From: a virus
Virus record (IMG/VR): IMGVR_UViG_3300015189_000002
Location: 1 to 64,000 of that record
Direction: 5' to 3' (one strand)
Length of the DNA stretch: 64,000 bases
Positions 51,261-63,866 of this stretch are shown here, piece by piece. Within the stretch, counting starts at the first letter, position 1; every line of letters starts with the position of its first letter. The notes under the pieces are model-generated. The model saw only the letters and a list, made by a program, of their open reading frames with translations, was not told the DNA's origin and did not search any database. The translations under genes were made by a program, and so were the position numbers.

Positions 51261-51692
51261 ATGGTCACAGATACGCGAGTGGCTATGGTTCTCGGTCTGC
51301 TTGACGGCGTGCCTGATGGGTACTATGCCACGCAGCTTGATGCGGAGTCGAAGATTGACTTCATACGAATCAGCCGCCCCAAGAATGGCAGGTATGCTGG
51401 GACTGTCAAGATTCAGTCTCAGCACGCAGAACGACTCGATACAGATGCCGTCGTTTGGTCAGATGGCACCTGTTCGATTTACAGCACAACAATCATCGAC
51501 ATCTTGATGTTGCTGGTCGCGGACTACAGAACATGCACCTTGCGCTACGCCAAAGAGATCGGACACTGCTGTCGTTGCAATACCGAGCTGACAGACATGA
51601 CTTCGATTCATTACGGTATCGGTCCTGAGTGCGTTAAGTATTGGCCTTGGGTGATTGAGGTCGTTGACGAACAGGCTGAGCAAGATGCTTGA
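51261..51692 (+). CDS. Zinc-binding protein, DUF6011-like
   Basis: The 143-residue product has a beta-rich front and a C-terminal segment GHCCRCNTELTDMTSIHYG followed by IGPECVKYW. The pattern CxxCxxxL-T-D...GIGPxC is typical of DUF6011-like zinc domains found in phage proteins. It has its own promoter at 51185 and GGAGG ribosome site. It overlaps the next gene by eight bases. The function is unknown. Confidence 0.72.
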   Translation: MVTDTRVAMVLGLLDGVPDGYYATQLDAESKIDFIRISRPKNGRYAGTVKIQSQHAERLDTDAVVWSDGTCSIYSTTIIDILMLLVADYRTCTLRYAKEIGHCCRCNTELTDMTSIHYGIGPECVKYWPWVIEVVDEQAEQDA

Positions 51693-52586: not shown

Positions 52587-54152
52587 ATGGCTGAAATGAA
52601 GTCGGCGTCGTCGACTGATCTTAACAAGTCTTGCAACAACTGTCCATCGTTTTGCCCTCCCTCGGAAAACGTCACCAAGTTCAAAAAGTCGCTTGGTACA
52701 AGTCTGTGTGGAAGGTATGGCATCGTTCTCGGCAAGCCCGGCCTGCCATCCAAGCAACTGGATCGACTGGCTCGGTACAACGCAAACAGGTGCCCCTCTT
52801 ACGGCGACCCGATGCCGCCAGTTCCTGTCGAGAAGCGCTTTCTCGTCACGATGCCTGACATGGAAGCTCGTGTCAGTACCGAGGGTTCTGATGGTGCGGC
52901 AGCGTGCAGCAGTTGTGCGATGTGCAAGAACTTCGTCAACGAGCAGACGGTGGCACAAGAGCTCGGCTGGACAGCCGGCCTGTGCGCGGCCAAAGGCAAG
53001 TTGATCCTGTCCACCGAACAGGTCTACGAAGCTCGCGACTGCGAGTACCGTTTCTACGGGCGAGTTCGCAACAGCACGATGGGGATGCCTCTTCTGCCCG
53101 AGTACGAAGACGCGTTCAACCTTAACGTCGACCCGATCAGAGCGTACTTCAAAAACAAGGGTCACTTGATCGAGCCGGGAGACTACCCGACTGATCGTGA
53201 AGTCCAGCCCGACGAGGCGAAGGGTGGTATCAAGGCTTGGAGGCGCGTTCTCGATCCTGACGGTTCGGGCAACGAGGTTCACCTTCCGATCTACGATGAC
53301 ATGTTCTTCGACGAAGACGAGCGTTCCAAGATTCCTCGAACAGGGGACGACGAGCACCCCGAGTCTTACATCGACCACTTCGGCGGTACCTACTTGGCCG
53401 CGGTTGCTTGGACTGAACTGGACGAGACTCCTGCGGTTTGGGGCGAGGCCGGCTGTGGAAAGACCGAACTGTTCCGCTACCTTGCGTGGCTCATGCAGAT
53501 TCCGTTTGAGCGCATCAGTATCACGGCTCAGACCGAGCTGGATGACCTCGCTGGGAAGACGCACTACAGTCAGGACGTTGGGACGTACTTCACTGAAGGT
53601 CGCCTGCCGAAGGCTTGGCAGAAGCCTTGCGTCATCGTCATCGACGAACCGAACGTGGGCTCGCCTGAGGTCTGGCAGTTTCTTCGGCCCCTGACTGACA
53701 ACAGCAAGCAGTTGGTGCTGGACATGGATCGAGGTCAGCGCATCCCTCGTCATGCCGACTGTTACATGGGTATGGCGATGAACCCAGCTTGGGACCCAAA
53801 GAACGTCGGAGCAGCTGTGATAGCAGATGCAGACGCTAGTCGTCTGTTCCACGTCTACATCGAGCAGCCCCCGGCAACACTGGAGCGTGAGATCATCACG
53901 AACAGAGTTCACCTAGATGGGTGGGACATGACCAGCGATCAGCTGGACATGCTCATGCACGTCGCGGAGGAAGTGCGCGCCTTGTGCAAGGACGGCAGTC
54001 TCGGTATCACCTGGGGTATCCGTCCACAGATCAAGGTGGCGCGTGCCCTTCGATGGTTCGACACAGTCACCTCGTACAGACGTGCGGTTGGCGACTACCT
54101 TGAGCCAGAGCAGTCCGAAGCACTACTCGCAGTTGTCCGAGCACACGCCTAG
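52587..54152 (+). CDS. MoxR-type AAA+ ATPase with cysteine-rich N-terminus
   Basis: The 521-residue protein has a cysteine-rich front (SCNNCPSFC at about 15-23, CSSCAMCKNF near 109-118, and further Cys), then an AAA+ core: Walker A GEAGCGKTE at 286-294, Walker B VIVIDEPNVG at 349-358, and RIPRHADCYMGMAMNPAWDP as the sensor region. MoxR-family ATPases remodel or mature metalloproteins with a VWA partner, as in CobST and RavA-ViaA. The VWA partner is encoded at 54789. The cysteine clusters could hold iron-sulfur or zinc and are not usual for MoxR. The substrate is unknown. Confidence 0.85.
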   Translation: MAEMKSASSTDLNKSCNNCPSFCPPSENVTKFKKSLGTSLCGRYGIVLGKPGLPSKQLDRLARYNANRCPSYGDPMPPVPVEKRFLVTMPDMEARVSTEGSDGAAACSSCAMCKNFVNEQTVAQELGWTAGLCAAKGKLILSTEQVYEARDCEYRFYGRVRNSTMGMPLLPEYEDAFNLNVDPIRAYFKNKGHLIEPGDYPTDREVQPDEAKGGIKAWRRVLDPDGSGNEVHLPIYDDMFFDEDERSKIPRTGDDEHPESYIDHFGGTYLAAVAWTELDETPAVWGEAGCGKTELFRYLAWLMQIPFERISITAQTELDDLAGKTHYSQDVGTYFTEGRLPKAWQKPCVIVIDEPNVGSPEVWQFLRPLTDNSKQLVLDMDRGQRIPRHADCYMGMAMNPAWDPKNVGAAVIADADASRLFHVYIEQPPATLEREIITNRVHLDGWDMTSDQLDMLMHVAEEVRALCKDGSLGITWGIRPQIKVARALRWFDTVTSYRRAVGDYLEPEQSEALLAVVRAHA

Positions 54153-54170
54153 AAAGGGCAGGTACAAAAA

Positions 54171-54701
54171 ATGGGTATTATCGCACCACGGTCAGATCAA
54201 GAGGCACTCAGTTGGCTGGTGGTCCGGTTCTTCCGGCCTTCTGGCCCGCTGATGTCCGGCACGAAGAAGGCTGGCGAGCTGGCAGCAGCCGAACTGAACG
54301 GCCTGCGTGATGGCCTCAGTGAGGCCATCGCGGCCTTTCTGTCAGTGAGGCGGGTCGACCTGTATCCGCACATCAAAGACACCAATCGCTTTATCGAGGC
54401 GATTGGAGGCTATGAGGTCAAGAAGCTCTTGATGGACCTTAAAGCCGGATGGGAGCTTGCCGGTACCACTCCCGAGCGCGACATCGCCATCAGCGAAGCC
54501 GTCGACTGGCTGTGGTCCCTCATGGGGGACAAGAATCTCGCCGAGTGGAACGAGGACGTTCGCCGCGACAAGGTGCGCGCTGGTCGCCTCAAGCCGGTCG
54601 AGTCTGATCGCGAGTGGCTGGAGGCTGAGGTTTCCGAAGCTCGCTCAAGCCTCGATGCTATCGCAGACATCTTGAATGGCACCGAGGCCCTGCCGAAGTA
54701 G
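54171..54701 (+). CDS. Helical protein between ATPase and VWA genes
   Basis: The 176-residue product is helical and charged (AAELNGLRDGLSEAIAAFLS, DWLWSLMGDKNLAEWNED). It has no cysteine or membrane segment. ATG 54171 is in an AAAAAATGG context; ATG 54252 is an alternative start. Position between two likely partner proteins suggests an adaptor or substrate of the MoxR/VWA complex, but no motif shows this. The function is unknown. Confidence 0.65.
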   Translation: MGIIAPRSDQEALSWLVVRFFRPSGPLMSGTKKAGELAAAELNGLRDGLSEAIAAFLSVRRVDLYPHIKDTNRFIEAIGGYEVKKLLMDLKAGWELAGTTPERDIAISEAVDWLWSLMGDKNLAEWNEDVRRDKVRAGRLKPVESDREWLEAEVSEARSSLDAIADILNGTEALPK

Positions 54702-54788
54702 AAGTAGTATTCCCAAGTTCGCCGTCCAGTCACGATACACGCTCCGTGACTGGACGGCCCCCACCCAATCCTATTGGAGGTTTCACAG

Positions 54789-57599
54789 ATGTCCATTGAC
54801 ACTGCAATGTTCGCCAAGGCTGGCGTCGACAATCAGAAGGACGAGCAGGCGCGTCGCGCCGTTGCCGTCTTCCGTCAGCTGCAACCCCTACTGACTTCCT
54901 ACGCCCGCATCCTGACCAAGAGGTCTGATGTCCGTGTAGAGATGGCCGCGCTGGACAACGGCTCGACCGACGGCAAGCGTATCTTCTTTCGCCCGCCTAT
55001 CTCGCTGGGTGACACGACGCCTCACGAGCGCAGGCTGTGCGACAAACGAGACGCTGACAAGCAGTTGCTGTGTCGTGCGTGCCAGATTCGTGAAAGTGTG
55101 CTGGTCACGATTTACCACGAGGTCGCTCACATCTGCTACAACTCGTTCGACAATCCGACCGACGAAGAGCGCGCTGAACTGATCGCCAAGGCTGTTCGTG
55201 AAGCTGACGGTAAGTTCGCAGAAGAGATCGCGTCCAAGATCGAGTCTGCCCCATACTTTACCAAGAACACTTACATGGGCATGGCGAGTCTTGTTAGCCC
55301 ATTCTTGCCGCTGATTATCAATGGGCTGGAGGATGCCCGAGTCAACGCCGAGATGCACAAGTCCCGCAAGGGAACTAAGGTCATGTTCGAGGCAGATGCA
55401 CACAAGATCTTCACCTTGGGTGTTGAGCAGAAAGACCCGGCTGGCAACATCATCGTCAAGCCGTGGAACGAGTACCCGCAGAATATGCAGATGATTGTCG
55501 GCCTGTACGTCAAGGCGTCCGGCTACGACTACAGGGGCTGGTTCATTCCGCCAGTCGAAGAAGCACTCAATGACGCCATGCTGCAGCGCTACTGCAACAT
55601 GGTTAAGACGGCACGTTCGGTATCTGGCATCTACAACTTGTCATTCCCCGTTCTCGAGCAGCTTCGTGAGTTGGGATTCTGCAAGCCGCCGGAGCCGAAG
55701 CCTGAACCTGAGCCCGAGCCCGAACCGGAGCCCGAGCCCGACAAAAAAGATGGGGAAGAAGAAGATGACAACGATTCAGCCGCTCCTTCCGATGGGGAAG
55801 ACGGAGAGTCTGAAGACACAGCCGGAGAGTCCGAAGGCGATGAGCCTGAAGACAGTTCTGACGGTGAAGGTGCTACCGGAGGTGAGCCATGCGACAACGG
55901 CGAGCCCGACGACTCGAATTCTAGTGGTGGGGATGATGAGTCGGACTCCGAAGGGGGAGACGGTGACGATCCAGTGGACGGACAAGGAGACGACGATGAC
56001 TCTTCACAGTCCGAGGGGGGTTCTGATGAGGGCCTTTCAGGTGAGGAGGATTCCGATAGTGAGTCCGGCGAGGCCAATCAGTCAGGCAATGACGCTGATG
56101 CTGAGAATTCTGGCAGCTCCGACGGATCTGGTGGATCAGACGGCGAACCATCTGACGAGTCTTCTTCAGATGGCTCAGAATCAGGTGACACAGAGGGGGA
56201 TGGTGTAGATGAAGAGGGTACAGATGAGTCTAGCCAGACTGGTGAAGGCGACATTGACTCTTCTGACGAGGGTGATGGAACAGGTGCTGGAGAGTCCGAT
56301 TCCAGTGGTCTTGGTTTCGGTGAGTCCGACGGAAGTCTTGAGTCAGGTCGTTCCGACGACACTGAAAAAGGCGACGAAGAAGGCGACGCCGACGACGACC
56401 ACGCCGGAGATGCTGGAGAAGCAGCGACTTCGACTGGAGATGACAGAGTACTGAAGCCACCGACAGCCGATCCAGTACTGTCTGACGAGCCGATAGACAC
56501 TGGCGCTGATGATGGCACAGGCGGAATCGAGCTCATCGAAGACGAGAAGTACGATCATGTCCCAATGGGCGAGGCCAAGGACTGCGAAGAGGGCGTTCAC
56601 GTCTGGACGCACCACGAGGGCGACGAGAAGCCGAAGACGCTCAACGAAACTGACTGTGAGAACGCAGTCGACCGTGCGGTTGTCCAAGGCATCTACTTCG
56701 AGACGCCATCCAAGAACATCTTTGGAGTCCGTGAGCACCACTACGGCCAGCCGGTCATTGTGGACGGGTACGACGTGTCAGGTGCCTGGAGCGACACTCG
56801 CTACACAAGGAGTGGCTTCACTCGGTACGACTTGGGAGTCGAGGGTGACTTCACGACGCCGCCGAAGGTTATCGGTGACGCACTTGTTCAGATGAGGGTT
56901 ACCTTCTCTGACAACAAACGCGGCCATGACCAAAACAACCTCAAGTCAGGCAAGGTCAACGCTCGGGTTCTCGGCAAGCGTGCGTGGCGTGGAGATGATC
57001 GTATCTTCAAGCGTCGCATCCTGCCGGGCAAGCGTGACTACTTTGTCATCCTTGCTGTGGATCTGTCTGGTTCACAGGTCGGACGGAACATCGTCCTTAC
57101 AAAGCGAGCTGTGTTCGCTCAGGCGACTCTGTTGAGTCGTATGGGTATCCCGTTCGCTATCTACGGCCACTCGGGCAACTACCACACGCCTAGCAAGGGT
57201 CGTTCTGAAGGTCTTGATCTCGACATCTACCTCATCAAAGAGGGTGGCGAGATGTGGGACAAGAATACACAGGAGCGGCTGCAGCAGGCTGGTCCTGACA
57301 GTGCGAACCTCGATGGTCACTCGGTAGAGTACTACCGCAAGCTGATGCAAAAGTCCACTGCGACTGATCGCATCATCATGTACTACACCGATGGCAAAAT
57401 GCCAGCAGAAAATCACGACGAAGAGCTGGAGATCCTGCAGCGTGAGATCAAGCGGTGTAAGCAGCTCGGCATCACACTGATGGGCGTCGGTATCCGAACC
57501 GACTCGCCTGTCAGACACGGCCTGGACACCGTTCAGGTCGACACCGAGGAAGACATTGTCAAGGTGGTGAGACACCTAGAAAAGAGGTTGCTCAAGTAG
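54789..57599 (+). CDS. CobT-like VWA protein with N-terminal HExxH metallopeptidase-like domain and giant acidic linker
   Basis: The 936-residue protein has three parts. Residues about 1-300 contain YHEVAHICYN (H110-E111-x-x-H114) and LEDARVNAEMH (E181/D182), a zinc-metallopeptidase-like set as in DUF2201/COG3864 proteins. Residues about 300-580 are almost all D, E, S, G, P: a PEP repeat and then acidic SG/DE runs. Residues about 745-936 form a VWA domain with a MIDAS DLSGS (758-762) and YTDGK (T867). CobT-type proteins pair with MoxR ATPases; the partner is at 52587. GGAGG precedes ATG 54789. Peptidase activity is inferred only. Confidence 0.88.
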   Translation: MSIDTAMFAKAGVDNQKDEQARRAVAVFRQLQPLLTSYARILTKRSDVRVEMAALDNGSTDGKRIFFRPPISLGDTTPHERRLCDKRDADKQLLCRACQIRESVLVTIYHEVAHICYNSFDNPTDEERAELIAKAVREADGKFAEEIASKIESAPYFTKNTYMGMASLVSPFLPLIINGLEDARVNAEMHKSRKGTKVMFEADAHKIFTLGVEQKDPAGNIIVKPWNEYPQNMQMIVGLYVKASGYDYRGWFIPPVEEALNDAMLQRYCNMVKTARSVSGIYNLSFPVLEQLRELGFCKPPEPKPEPEPEPEPEPEPDKKDGEEEDDNDSAAPSDGEDGESEDTAGESEGDEPEDSSDGEGATGGEPCDNGEPDDSNSSGGDDESDSEGGDGDDPVDGQGDDDDSSQSEGGSDEGLSGEEDSDSESGEANQSGNDADAENSGSSDGSGGSDGEPSDESSSDGSESGDTEGDGVDEEGTDESSQTGEGDIDSSDEGDGTGAGESDSSGLGFGESDGSLESGRSDDTEKGDEEGDADDDHAGDAGEAATSTGDDRVLKPPTADPVLSDEPIDTGADDGTGGIELIEDEKYDHVPMGEAKDCEEGVHVWTHHEGDEKPKTLNETDCENAVDRAVVQGIYFETPSKNIFGVREHHYGQPVIVDGYDVSGAWSDTRYTRSGFTRYDLGVEGDFTTPPKVIGDALVQMRVTFSDNKRGHDQNNLKSGKVNARVLGKRAWRGDDRIFKRRILPGKRDYFVILAVDLSGSQVGRNIVLTKRAVFAQATLLSRMGIPFAIYGHSGNYHTPSKGRSEGLDLDIYLIKEGGEMWDKNTQERLQQAGPDSANLDGHSVEYYRKLMQKSTATDRIIMYYTDGKMPAENHDEELEILQREIKRCKQLGITLMGVGIRTDSPVRHGLDTVQVDTEEDIVKVVRHLEKRLLK

Positions 57600-57641: not shown

Positions 57642-57806
57642 TTTCTAACCAGTCAGATTAGGAAACGACTGGCTTGTGTAATTGAGTCCCCATCGTAAAC
57701 CGATAGCAATATCCTTGGGTCGGGGCTTGCAACGGTCCAAGCGACCGTGTAACGTCGCCTACTACAGCACTTCACCGCACGACCCGACATGAAAGGGAGG
57801 CGCATC

Positions 57807-58238
57807 ATGGCCGCCGATTACAGCCAGTTCCAGGGAAAGAAAGTCGTCATCGTCCGCAACGAGCCGGGCAAAGCCGAGGCCGAAGAGATCGAGGGCACTG
57901 TCGAAGCGAGCAACGAGATGGGCGTGCTGATCAAGCCCAAGGGCAAGAGCCAGCTTCTGCTCATCGAGGTCGCAGAGATCGACCACATCGACTTCGTGGA
58001 ATCCAAACTGAAAGAGCTCACCCGGAAGGTCCTCAAGCCGGTCGAGTTCGGTCAGGCACGAAACCACCTGCTCGAGCGCCATGCCTACTCGCTGGCCTCG
58101 GTCAACAAGCTGACCGAGAAGGAGGCGTTCGAGTTCCACGCGACCATCGACCACGAGGGCGATGACCTCGGTCACACTCACGAGGACAAGGATGCCACCG
58201 AGCGCGCACAGGCCGTCGCCGCCGCTGAGGTTGCCTGA
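57807..58238 (+). CDS. Acidic helical protein
   Basis: ATG 57807 follows AAAGGGAGG; ATG 57789 is less well placed. The 143-residue product starts MAADYSQFQGKKVVIVRNEP and has IEVAEIDHIDFVESKLKELT and a charged tail with HEGDDLGHTHEDKDATERA. The beta-alpha front and acidic tail give little to identify it. The function is unknown. Confidence 0.65.
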   Translation: MAADYSQFQGKKVVIVRNEPGKAEAEEIEGTVEASNEMGVLIKPKGKSQLLLIEVAEIDHIDFVESKLKELTRKVLKPVEFGQARNHLLERHAYSLASVNKLTEKEAFEFHATIDHEGDDLGHTHEDKDATERAQAVAAAEVA

Positions 58239-58456: not shown

Positions 58457-59188
58457 ATGGCAGTAGGTTGGAAAGGAGTCAGCTTACGTGATCCAAACGA
58501 GCCCGGCTACGAGGCTAAGCATCCGTGGTCTTTTGGATGCGAAGTTGAGCTGTGCTACTACCGAGTGTGTGCGGACTCAGAAGCCGCCGCACTTGAGATT
58601 CAGAATAACCACGGATGCCCTCACTCGGGCACCACAAAGATTGGATGGACCGTGACTAGGACACTGGTAGAACAGATGTGGGACAAGCTCGATGAAGCGA
58701 TGGTTGAGATTCAGAACGGAGTTGCCGCTCTTCATGTCTTAGATGTTAGTGAACATAGCAGTACAAGCAAGGCTTTACATGACGCAAAGGTGCGCGCTAG
58801 AGCGTTTGCTGAGTGCATAGCGATCTTCATGCCTCCACATTTCACTACTGCCGACGATGTAGCTCGTGAGGCGAAGATGCGTTACAACGCAAAGCAAGCT
58901 GGCGACGAGCATCAGACAGCCGGCCTCGGTCAGCGCCGCTACGAGGGTGCTGAAGAGTGGACCAAGGCTCAGGGCGGCTGGACTAGTGACCCAGCACAGG
59001 GTATGCGTGGAACTGGCACGTCGAAGCGCTCCACTCCCAAGACGACTCAGATTCCTCCTAGCCTTGGCGAGAAGGAGCAGGCGGCAATCAAGTTCGCTTT
59101 TGAGTCAGGAATGTTCACGGAGGCAGTACTGTCCACGACCTACAAGGTTCCTGTGCAGGTGATTCGACAAATCGTCTCACCCGTTTGA
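58457..59188 (+). CDS. Protein with cysteine/histidine front and helical C-terminus
   Basis: The 243-residue product has FGCEVELCYYRVCADSEAAA and NNHGCPHSGTTKIG in the first 60 residues, a helical middle (VEIQNGVAALHVLDVSEH), and a C-terminal helix-turn-helix-like segment IKFAFESGMFTEAVLSTTYK. AAAGGAGAGTAAT gives its start. The stop codon lies inside the -35 of the promoter at 59185. It may be a regulator; the family is not recognised. Confidence 0.68.
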   Translation: MAVGWKGVSLRDPNEPGYEAKHPWSFGCEVELCYYRVCADSEAAALEIQNNHGCPHSGTTKIGWTVTRTLVEQMWDKLDEAMVEIQNGVAALHVLDVSEHSSTSKALHDAKVRARAFAECIAIFMPPHFTTADDVAREAKMRYNAKQAGDEHQTAGLGQRRYEGAEEWTKAQGGWTSDPAQGMRGTGTSKRSTPKTTQIPPSLGEKEQAAIKFAFESGMFTEAVLSTTYKVPVQVIRQIVSPV

Positions 59189-61009: not shown

Positions 61010-61595
61010 GGGCCAATACCGTCCCGGTTCTCGCAATCCAAAGTTTCGATCCGATGGCAAGATGTCAGAGAATCGGATCGCCTGGATGCGTACTGTACTT
61101 GGTACGTCAGTCATCATGTTCTATCCTCCTGGAGTGAATGACGAAGATGATGATGAGTATGAGATCGCAAACAACAAAGAGCTTGGCCCGACAGTCAGAC
61201 TCGTATTGCCTCGACCCAATGGTCGAGCTGTAACCATGAACCTTACTGCGATGACAGGTCCAGAGTTACAGATGATGCGAGAGTTCTACGACCTGCTATT
61301 TGATCTAGCAGAGCCCGTTGTACGGGAGAGAGACAAGGTGGCGCAAGATGCCTTCAACTCAGGTGATGACGCTTTCGCAAGAATCTATCGACAGGTTCCG
61401 CAACTGGTTATCCGTTCGGGGCAAGTCCCCGAAGACTACCAAAGCATACGGGACCGACTTGGGGATCTTGCTAACCGAGTTGGAAGAGACGGAGATCTCG
61501 AAGGAAGACTTCGCGGAGACGGCCATGAACTGGCTCCAAGCGAACCGGAAGAGAATCGCTCCAAAGACGACGACACGCCGGTTGACAAGCCTTAA
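61002..61595 (+). CDS. Conserved-looking protein, long overlap with the integrase
   Basis: The GTG at 61002 begins a 197-residue product: RIAWMRTVLGTSVIMFYPPG, PTVRLVLPRPNGRAVTMN, then MMREFYDLLFDLAEPVVRER. After residue 116 its frame overlaps the recombinase gene by about 250 bases, ending with a proline- and acid-rich tail. Its body resembles actinophage proteins found near integrases, with no known function. The second half may be retained because it codes in both frames. The function is unknown. Confidence 0.7.
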   Translation: MAKGQYRPGSRNPKFRSDGKMSENRIAWMRTVLGTSVIMFYPPGVNDEDDDEYEIANNKELGPTVRLVLPRPNGRAVTMNLTAMTGPELQMMREFYDLLFDLAEPVVRERDKVAQDAFNSGDDAFARIYRQVPQLVIRSGQVPEDYQSIRDRLGDLANRVGRDGDLEGRLRGDGHELAPSEPEENRSKDDDTPVDKP

Positions 61596-62178
61596 AGCGT
61601 TCTCAAAGTGGGCCGGATGGGGCGACTCGTTGGCTGACTACAGTGCTCCTTTCGTAGCCAAGGGAATACCTCATCCGATGCCGGAAGGTGTCGATGGAGT
61701 GTATCGCCTGATCGCGGCCACCGAGTACGAGAACCGCAAGGCGTTAGTTGCCTTGTGTGGGCTGTGCGGTTGCAGGATCGGCGAAGCTCTGGCCATCAAG
61801 CCGTGTGATTTCGATCTTCAGAACATGATGCTGACCATCCGCGGTAAGGCTGACAAAACTCGAGTCGTCCCGGTCGGCACCAGGGCTTGGAAGATTCTTC
61901 AGATGCCTGTCACGCGAGCGTTCGTCAGTGGCGGAGGAGAGGTGGTGGGTCTGAAGGATCGGTTTGCCCGGCGGATCATCAGTGACCTTGGACTCAAAGC
62001 CGGCCTGATTCGACCGATCAGAAGTCACGATCTTCGTGCCACCTTCGCCACGGCGATCTATGACTCGACCTTGGATATCAGGGTCGTACAGGAGTTGCTC
62101 GGCCACGCCTCGGTTGAGACGACTCAGCTCTACACTGGCATCACCCTCGACACCATGCGAAAGGCGGTTGAACTGTGA
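61348..62178 (+). CDS. Tyrosine recombinase (integrase/XerC-like)
   Basis: The 276-residue protein has a SAM-like N-terminal core-binding domain (SIDRFRNWLSVRGKSPKTTK) and a catalytic domain with all key residues: Arg143 in CGCRIGEAL, Lys170 in GKADKTRV, His227/Arg230 in SHDLRATF, His253 in LLGHAS, and nucleophile Tyr262 in LYTGI. It would cut and join DNA at a target site. ATG 61348 lies within the upstream gene in another frame. No repressor or attachment core is recognised nearby, so a role in genome dimer resolution is as likely as lysogenic integration. Confidence 0.9.
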   Translation: MPSTQVMTLSQESIDRFRNWLSVRGKSPKTTKAYGTDLGILLTELEETEISKEDFAETAMNWLQANRKRIAPKTTTRRLTSLKAFSKWAGWGDSLADYSAPFVAKGIPHPMPEGVDGVYRLIAATEYENRKALVALCGLCGCRIGEALAIKPCDFDLQNMMLTIRGKADKTRVVPVGTRAWKILQMPVTRAFVSGGGEVVGLKDRFARRIISDLGLKAGLIRPIRSHDLRATFATAIYDSTLDIRVVQELLGHASVETTQLYTGITLDTMRKAVEL

Positions 62179-63304: not shown

Positions 63305-63486
63305 TGAACGTTGACGCGCTGGGCACAAAGAATGGTGAGGTCAAGATTCAGATGACCCTGACCAAAGAGACGAAGGGAACTTATGTCTACGGCAATCCTG
63401 AGAGTGTTGTGCCGACTCTATACATCAAGAAGGAAGCCTTCGACAGCTCGGCACCGAAGGTCATCACCCTCATCGTAACCTCCTGA
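63304..63486 (+). CDS. Small beta-rich protein
   Basis: The 60-residue product (KNGEVKIQMTLTKETKGTYV, VVPTLYIKKEAFDSSAPKVI) looks like a small beta-sandwich with alternating V/I/T strands. It is linked to both neighbours by overlapping stops and starts. It resembles other phage small beta proteins only in pattern. The function is unknown. Confidence 0.65.
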   Translation: MNVDALGTKNGEVKIQMTLTKETKGTYVYGNPESVVPTLYIKKEAFDSSAPKVITLIVTS

Positions 63487-63866
63487 TGAGACTTCTCGTG
63501 TGTGGATCGCGGACATACTCTGATCGAGAGTTTATGTTCGGAGTCCTTGACGGCTTTCTCGATGCTCACCACATTGAGGTTGTCATCGAAGGCGAGGCTC
63601 CCGGTGCAGATACGCTCGGCAGGATATGGGCTGAGTTGCATGGGATTCCAGTCGAACAGTTCCCCGCAGACTGGACGCGATATGGACGAGAGGCTGGCCC
63701 GAAGCGTAACAAGCAGATGCTTGACGAGGGTAAGCCAGATTTCGTGGTCGGCTTCATTGACAAGCCAAAAGCAGAGTCGAGAGGTACAAACAACATGATC
63801 TCGCAAGCGGGTAAGCGCGATGTGCCATACGAGTGGTACAGTCGTAACAAAGAGTTCCTGTTGTGA
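63486..63866 (+). CDS. SLOG-superfamily protein, DUF2493 (YspA-like)
   Basis: The 126-residue product begins RLLVCGSRTYSDREFMFGVL and contains VVIEGEAPGADTLGRIWAEL, FPADWTRYGREAGPKRNKQM and ESRGTNNMI. These are the signature segments of the DUF2493/SLOG family, Rossmann-like nucleotide-binding proteins. SLOG proteins sense nucleotides in several defence and stress systems. It is coupled by overlap to the next gene (GTGA). The ligand is not known. Confidence 0.82.
   Translation: MRLLVCGSRTYSDREFMFGVLDGFLDAHHIEVVIEGEAPGADTLGRIWAELHGIPVEQFPADWTRYGREAGPKRNKQMLDEGKPDFVVGFIDKPKAESRGTNNMISQAGKRDVPYEWYSRNKEFLL

Follow-up and report, generated by a model that had tools for sequence, protein, structure and literature searches.

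A coupled MoxR-type ATPase and metallopeptidase-like VWA protein encoded by tailed phages of actinobacteria

In a family of tailed phages, the gene for a MoxR-type AAA+ ATPase is always accompanied by that of a CobT-like protein in which a metallopeptidase-like domain is joined to a VWA domain, and the ATPase gene always comes first. By sequence comparison and structure models, we demonstrate that the two genes are coupled, assign each to its family, identify invariant residues of metal-ligand type, and place the pair outside the structural genes of the genome analyzed. The window (the whole stretch of DNA that was analyzed, 64,000 bases) comprises bases 1 to 64000 of a 71,403-base virus record, a tailed-phage contig of 71.4 kb. 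New here, besides the constant pairing and gene order in relatives, are the invariant residues of the Cys units and of the HExxH domain, the contrast between viral and cellular CobT at the HExxH position, and a survey for ribonucleotide reductase (RNR) and CobN. We think that the pair is best explained as a two-component machine, driven by ATP, that remodels and cleaves proteins as part of the non-structural programme, an explanation to which we give roughly even chances. It draws support from the coupling of the genes, the matches to NorQ/NorD and CobT, the invariance of HExxH and D187, and the antiparallel, non-structural position of the pair.

More than 100 sequenced actinophages carry this pair under a "cobalamin biosynthesis" label that the evidence presented here does not support. 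If the pair is a remodelling protease, phages would possess a compact machine for ATP-driven proteolysis that differs from Clp, Lon, and FtsH, and, through the invariant Cys units, the control of this machine could be tested directly in laboratory Gordonia strains. In the branch without a phage-encoded RNR, the B12 idea could also be disentangled from whatever else viral CobST does.

The ATPase, its partner, and their distribution

The features of the region, with the evidence for each, are as follows.

52587..54152, + strand: MoxR-clade AAA+ ATPase, 521 aa, with an 8-Cys N-terminal extension (ORF, family matches, Foldseek, CobS profile match)
52632..53042, + strand: Cys domain; unit 1 is C16, C19, C41, C69 and unit 2 is C110, C113, C133, C152 (invariance, hhalign)
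53442..53654, + strand: Walker A (G286-T293) to Walker B (V349-N356) of the AAA+ core (invariant residues in ATPase alignments A1 and A3)
54171..54701, + strand: small helical gene, 176 aa, between the pair and probably outside the module
54789..57599, + strand: CobT-like metallopeptidase-linker-VWA protein, 936 aa from the ATG (ORF, Pfam, PHROG)
55038..55082, + strand: C89, C100, and C103, probable structural metal site (just N-terminal of HExxH; conservation)
55116..55130, + strand: HEVAH zincin-type motif, H115, E116, H119 (41/41 sequences)
55329..55334, + strand: E186-D187, candidate third metal ligand (D187 in 41/41; E186 in 39/41, with D in the other 2)
55698..56633, + strand: acidic D/E/G/S linker, about 310 aa (composition)
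57036..57596, + strand: CobT-type VWA domain with MIDAS residues D763xS765xS767, D847, and D873 (Pfam CobT_C at 754-933; profile matches)

Residues of the partner are numbered from the TTG at 54774, which opens the frame (941 aa); counted from the ATG at 54789, which is preceded by GGAGG and yields 936 aa, HEVAH lies at 110-114 and the E-D pair is E181/D182.

The first-pass annotation had described the ATPase with its Walker motifs and N-terminal Cys clusters, and the 936-residue protein with HEVAH, the E181/D182 pair, an acidic linker, and a MIDAS VWA domain; all of these features are present. Walker A reads GEAGCGKT and Walker B VIVIDEPN. The ATPase belongs to PHROG 5424 (E 3e-176) and scores 48.6 bits with Pfam AAA_5, over the curated cut-off. 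Its AlphaFold model (mean pLDDT 87) finds CbbQ2 as the best Foldseek match (E 7e-17) and also NorQ, including the NorQ solved with the NorD VWA domain. Taken with its AAA+ core motifs, the AAA_5 score and these MoxR-like fold matches place the protein in the MoxR clade. A profile alignment to the solved CobS also covers nearly all of that protein. One scan of genome contigs returned no bacterial homologues of the ATPase.

The partner belongs to PHROG 5298 ("cobalamin biosynthesis protein"; E 6e-147) and scores 27.9 bits with Pfam CobT_C (PF11775; cut-off, 21). No NCBIfam CobT model appeared among its matches at E 0.1. The C-terminal domain is a predicted MIDAS VWA domain on the basis of CobT_C, of profile matches to the solved CobT and NorD, and of the conserved MIDAS residues (D763-L-S-G-S and T872-D-G). 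The linker (residues 309 to 620) contains 116 D/E but only 10 K/R in 312 residues. Profile searches thus bore out the proposed relationships to MoxR, CobT, and VWA proteins (AAA_5, CobT_C, and the CobT/NorD profiles), but the suggested membership of COG3864/DUF2201 did not hold: no DUF2201 was found among the families listed (25 of 27) when the 34 members were scanned with Pfam at E 1, and the fold of the HExxH domain, which matched only other viral CobT-like proteins, also speaks against it.

A tblastn search of phage records returned 117 with the ATPase and 116 with the HExxH domain, the host counts being the same for both genes (Gordonia, 105; Tsukamurella, 6; Rhodococcus, 5); IMG/VR scans yielded further members. 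Apart from fragments of the window and both ends of a single contig, every relative locus with enough flanking sequence has both genes on one strand with the ATPase first. Along with the profile matches, this confirms the tight linkage that had been proposed between a MoxR ATPase and a VWA partner with a metallopeptidase-like domain. The linkage, and the fusion of an HExxH domain (motif in 41/41 sequences, viral CobT-like fold) to a vWA domain, identify a viral MoxR/metallopeptidase-vWA (CobST-like) pair.

The view that such a function is uncommon in phages has to be abandoned. Besides the roughly 116 actinophage records, related pairs occur in phages of Vibrio, Rhizobium, Pseudomonas, Klebsiella, Escherichia, Salmonella, and Roseobacter and in haloarchaeal viruses (PMC8651126). 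In more than 100 phages of soil actinobacteria the genes are already annotated ("AAA-ATPase" and "CobT-like"), and we found no functional study of the pair from Gordonia or Rhodococcus phages in the open-access literature, outside which most subscription papers lie. Three phage contigs of 27 to 42 kb (L061, L062, and L065) have the two genes overlapping or nearly so, an ATPase without Cys units, and no RNR. The CobT of RHEph10 matches 995 plasmid records, mostly from Klebsiella, Escherichia, and Acinetobacter; among the matches listed, the Acinetobacter plasmids are mostly about 111 kb, and these may be phage-plasmids.

The small gene between the pair had been listed along with the two. No homologue was found in any of 50,697 phage records, nor did the gene give a Pfam match, a PADLOC match, or a significant PHROG match. 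In the relatives examined, zero to ten genes lie between the ATPase and its partner, with spacing that ranges from an overlap to several kilobases. Given the absence of phage homologues and the variable gap, we reject the small gene as a module component and regard the unit as a pair rather than a trio. A vWA-MoxR ternary conflict system was likewise rejected, as there is no conserved third component (the small gene lacks phage homologues) and no PADLOC hit; nor did PADLOC match any defence system. A 12-pair hairpin lies within the small gene (54306-54332, + strand).

Invariant residues of metal-ligand type

The eight cysteines are the sole invariant residues of the ATPase N-terminus (33 rows, 25% mean identity) and are all present in the 36/36 sequences that bear the extension, which is absent from three divergent marine-type homologues. 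They form two four-Cys units, which hhalign aligns as homologues (E 3e-9). All matches to this domain among those listed from the phage collection belong to this ATPase family, and no earlier description of the units was found in the open-access literature (most subscription papers fall outside it). Zinc and [4Fe-4S] are both candidate cofactors. Pfam HIPIP matched the Cys region in 3/33 ATPase members, weakly (best E, 0.0067). When a HiPIP reference sequence (which matches PDB 1cku/1hip) was used for comparison, 33/3000 Cys-fixed shuffles reached the HiPIP score, in an alignment that spans the CxxC part only, and the PDB sequences gave no HiPIP matches to the units. These HiPIP signals are not convincingly above the Cys-fixed control. 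It is highly doubtful, in our estimation, that the ATPase forms an AAA+ ring with two tandem HiPIP-like [4Fe-4S] units per subunit, through which the host's redox or iron state during infection would gate a viral unfoldase-metallopeptidase.

In the partner, HExxH and D187 are retained in all sequences of a wide alignment despite pairwise identity that falls to 14%. In the same alignment, C89 and C100 are found in 41/41 sequences and C103 in 37/41; in alignment A4, C89 and C103 are invariant. These three cysteines probably constitute a structural metal site. Over 34 rows of the HExxH domain only seven positions are invariant (C89, C103, H115, E116, H119, D187, and Q239), six of them of a metal-ligand or catalytic type. 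The domain could be modelled as a confident fold (AlphaFold mean pLDDT, 90; pTM, 0.86). Foldseek matched it only to viral CobT-like proteins (from Gordonia phages, haloarchaeal viruses, and other Caudoviricetes) and found no solved relative and no solved peptidase; the closest Pfam matches, WLM, M48, and SprT-like, are all weak. The lack of a solved-peptidase match and the weakness of these family matches count against a cleavage machine, as does the loss of HExxH from two outgroup homologues, described below.

An alternative is that the pair is a MoxR-VWA activator or cofactor inserter, like NorQD and CbbQO, in which the HExxH domain binds metal or substrate without cutting it. NorQ and CbbQ are the closest solved ATPases, HExxH is missing in 2/9 outgroup homologues, and the N-domain of NorD is thought to set target specificity (PMC9976466). 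However, E116 is a residue of catalytic type and is no less invariant than the two His residues, and metal binding alone needs no such Glu. We therefore rate a non-cutting activator as improbable.

Genome position, virion assembly, and the B12 question

The head and tail genes of the source phage (terminase, portal, protease, capsid, tape measure, and tail genes) occupy the - strand from about 1 to 28 kb, and primase and helicase are encoded on the + strand at 28.7 to 31.6 kb. The pair lies within a + strand block beyond 40 kb, i.e., it is non-structural and antiparallel to the head and tail genes, and in Rhodococcus phage Perlina it is likewise oriented against the structural genes. Other phage CobST pairs lie near genes for DNA polymerase III alpha, primase, helicase, or ligase. 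This non-structural block and these replication-gene neighbors favor, by genome position only, an early or middle action of the pair.

A different role has been proposed in print for the same architecture (PMC7824862): that of a virion-assembly chaperone and processing protease, comparable to the MoxR-vWA pairs of group 2.2 jumbo phages and Acidianus two-tailed virus. By analogy, the actinophage pair might serve a very long tail. Several carriers do have very long tails, of about 540 nm (PMC4982279) or, in GMA7, 474 nm (PMC4524720), and the tape measure protein of the source phage is 2278 aa. Against this, the pair stands outside the structural block and is transcribed in the opposite direction, the phage already encodes a dedicated head maturation protease, and marine-type relatives of 40 to 42 kb keep the pair under a different gene layout. 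We consider a role in virion assembly possible but doubtful, and the earlier suggestion of action on a virion metalloprotein is similarly disfavored by the location.

Several other features of the region may be recorded. A promoter scan found no + strand site there, with a scan total that was itself at chance level; a terminator scan found 10 terminator-like sites (5.4 expected). A tyrosine-integrase domain protein (61318-62178, +; Pfam Phage_integrase E 7e-25), of which 17 related loci have a homologue close to the pair, suggests that the source phage may be temperate, although Rhodococcus/Gordonia cluster CR relatives are described as lytic (PMC13313380). A YspA/SLOG-family protein is encoded at 63486-63866 (+; Pfam YAcAr E 5e-17), and 51261-51692 (+) encodes a protein with a Cys-rich DUF6011 motif at its C-terminus (E 2e-9), of which 23 related loci have a homologue close to the pair. 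Directly 3′ of the pair are two genes with no assigned function, 57789-58238 (+; PHROG 6646) and 58457-59188 (+; PHROG 5406), whose homologues occur in 25 and 21 related loci, respectively. It is possible that their products are functional partners of the pair.

The cellular cobaltochelatase proteins CobS and CobT work with CobN. Accordingly annotated in GenBank and in PHROG 5298, the phage pair could be a chelatase helper, in which viral CobS/CobT and host CobN raise cobalamin levels and so feed B12 enzymes such as class II RNR. Tailed viruses, haloarchaeal ones among them, have been proposed to use the pair in this way (PMC8651126); the coverage of nearly all of CobS by the ATPase profile is in keeping with it, and RNR (of any class) is encoded by 7/9 outgroup CobST phages. 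In the actinophage branch, however, RNR was found in 0/37 records (36 relatives and the window's own record, some of them fragments and all related, so that they do not represent 37 independent events). CobN was found in 0/41 records. An E. coli control genome also lacked CobN in the same search, yet Escherichia phage Cyrano carries the pair. With the CobS equivalog model (NCBIfam TIGR01650), the ATPase scores 23.2 bits, far short of the cut-off of 558.55.

The HExxH position is also informative. None of four cellular CobTs has the motif, the equivalent stretch being HDxxxH in three and HDxxxS in one, whereas 7/9 outgroup phage CobTs have it (the two without it are hairong and BUCTxx99). The actinophage N-domain profile matches other viral CobT at E 2.6e-6 but cellular CobT only marginally, over 34 residues at a probability of 3.5%. 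Retention of HExxH therefore follows viral rather than chelatase use, although, to judge by the hairong and BUCTxx99 proteins, function in the wider family does not always require it. A viral chelatase helper could still be of use to an RNR or another B12 enzyme encoded by the host. Nevertheless, the absence of RNR from the branch and of CobN makes a vitamin B12 role for the pair unlikely, and we hold out little prospect for the helper model.

Returning to the remodelling and cleavage machine, we envisage that the ATPase would form a MoxR-type ring, onto which the partner's VWA domain would dock. The long acidic linker would then tether the N-terminal, zincin-like zinc domain (HExxH and probably D187), which may clip a protein that the ring pulls or reshapes. 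The four-Cys units of the ATPase might bind metal and select substrates, as an adaptor or a sensor. The machine would presumably act early or in the middle of infection, and its target would probably be a host or replication protein rather than cobalamin synthesis.

Relation to known systems

Like cellular CobS-CobT, the phage pair combines AAA+ and VWA domains with an acidic linker, and the cellular E-x-A-R resembles the phage E-D-A-R. The two differ in that the cellular proteins have HDxxx(H/S) at the HExxH position, the phages lack CobN, and the phage ATPase misses the CobS equivalog cut-off. With NorQ-NorD and CbbQ-CbbO, the pair shares the ATPase fold (TM-score of about 0.8 over the target) and a VWA partner with a disordered linker; in the part of PMC9976466 that we consulted, the N-domains of NorD and CbbO are called mutually unrelated and a metallopeptidase domain is not mentioned.

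Jumbo phages carry a MoxR AAA+ and metallopeptidase-vWA pair, described by Iyer et al. (2021; PMC7824862), who proposed that it acts in virion assembly with peptidolytic processing. As in their group 2.2 pair, likened here by description only, a MoxR ATPase adjoins a vWA protein with an N-terminal metallopeptidase domain; unlike it, the pair studied here is found mostly in 70- to 85-kb actinophages, has the 8-Cys extension, and lies outside the structural genes. Liu et al. (2021; PMC8651126) found viral CobST to be widespread and proposed that it hijacks host CobN. Their viral CobS/CobT and the actinophage pair are both two-gene modules with a CobT-type VWA domain and an N-domain fold common to haloarchaeal HHTV-2 and other Caudoviricetes, but the actinophage branch is without RNR and its ATPase bears the Cys extension. 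The kind of system is thus a known one, and the actinophage pair belongs with the MoxR-vWA pairs of jumbo phages and with viral CobST.
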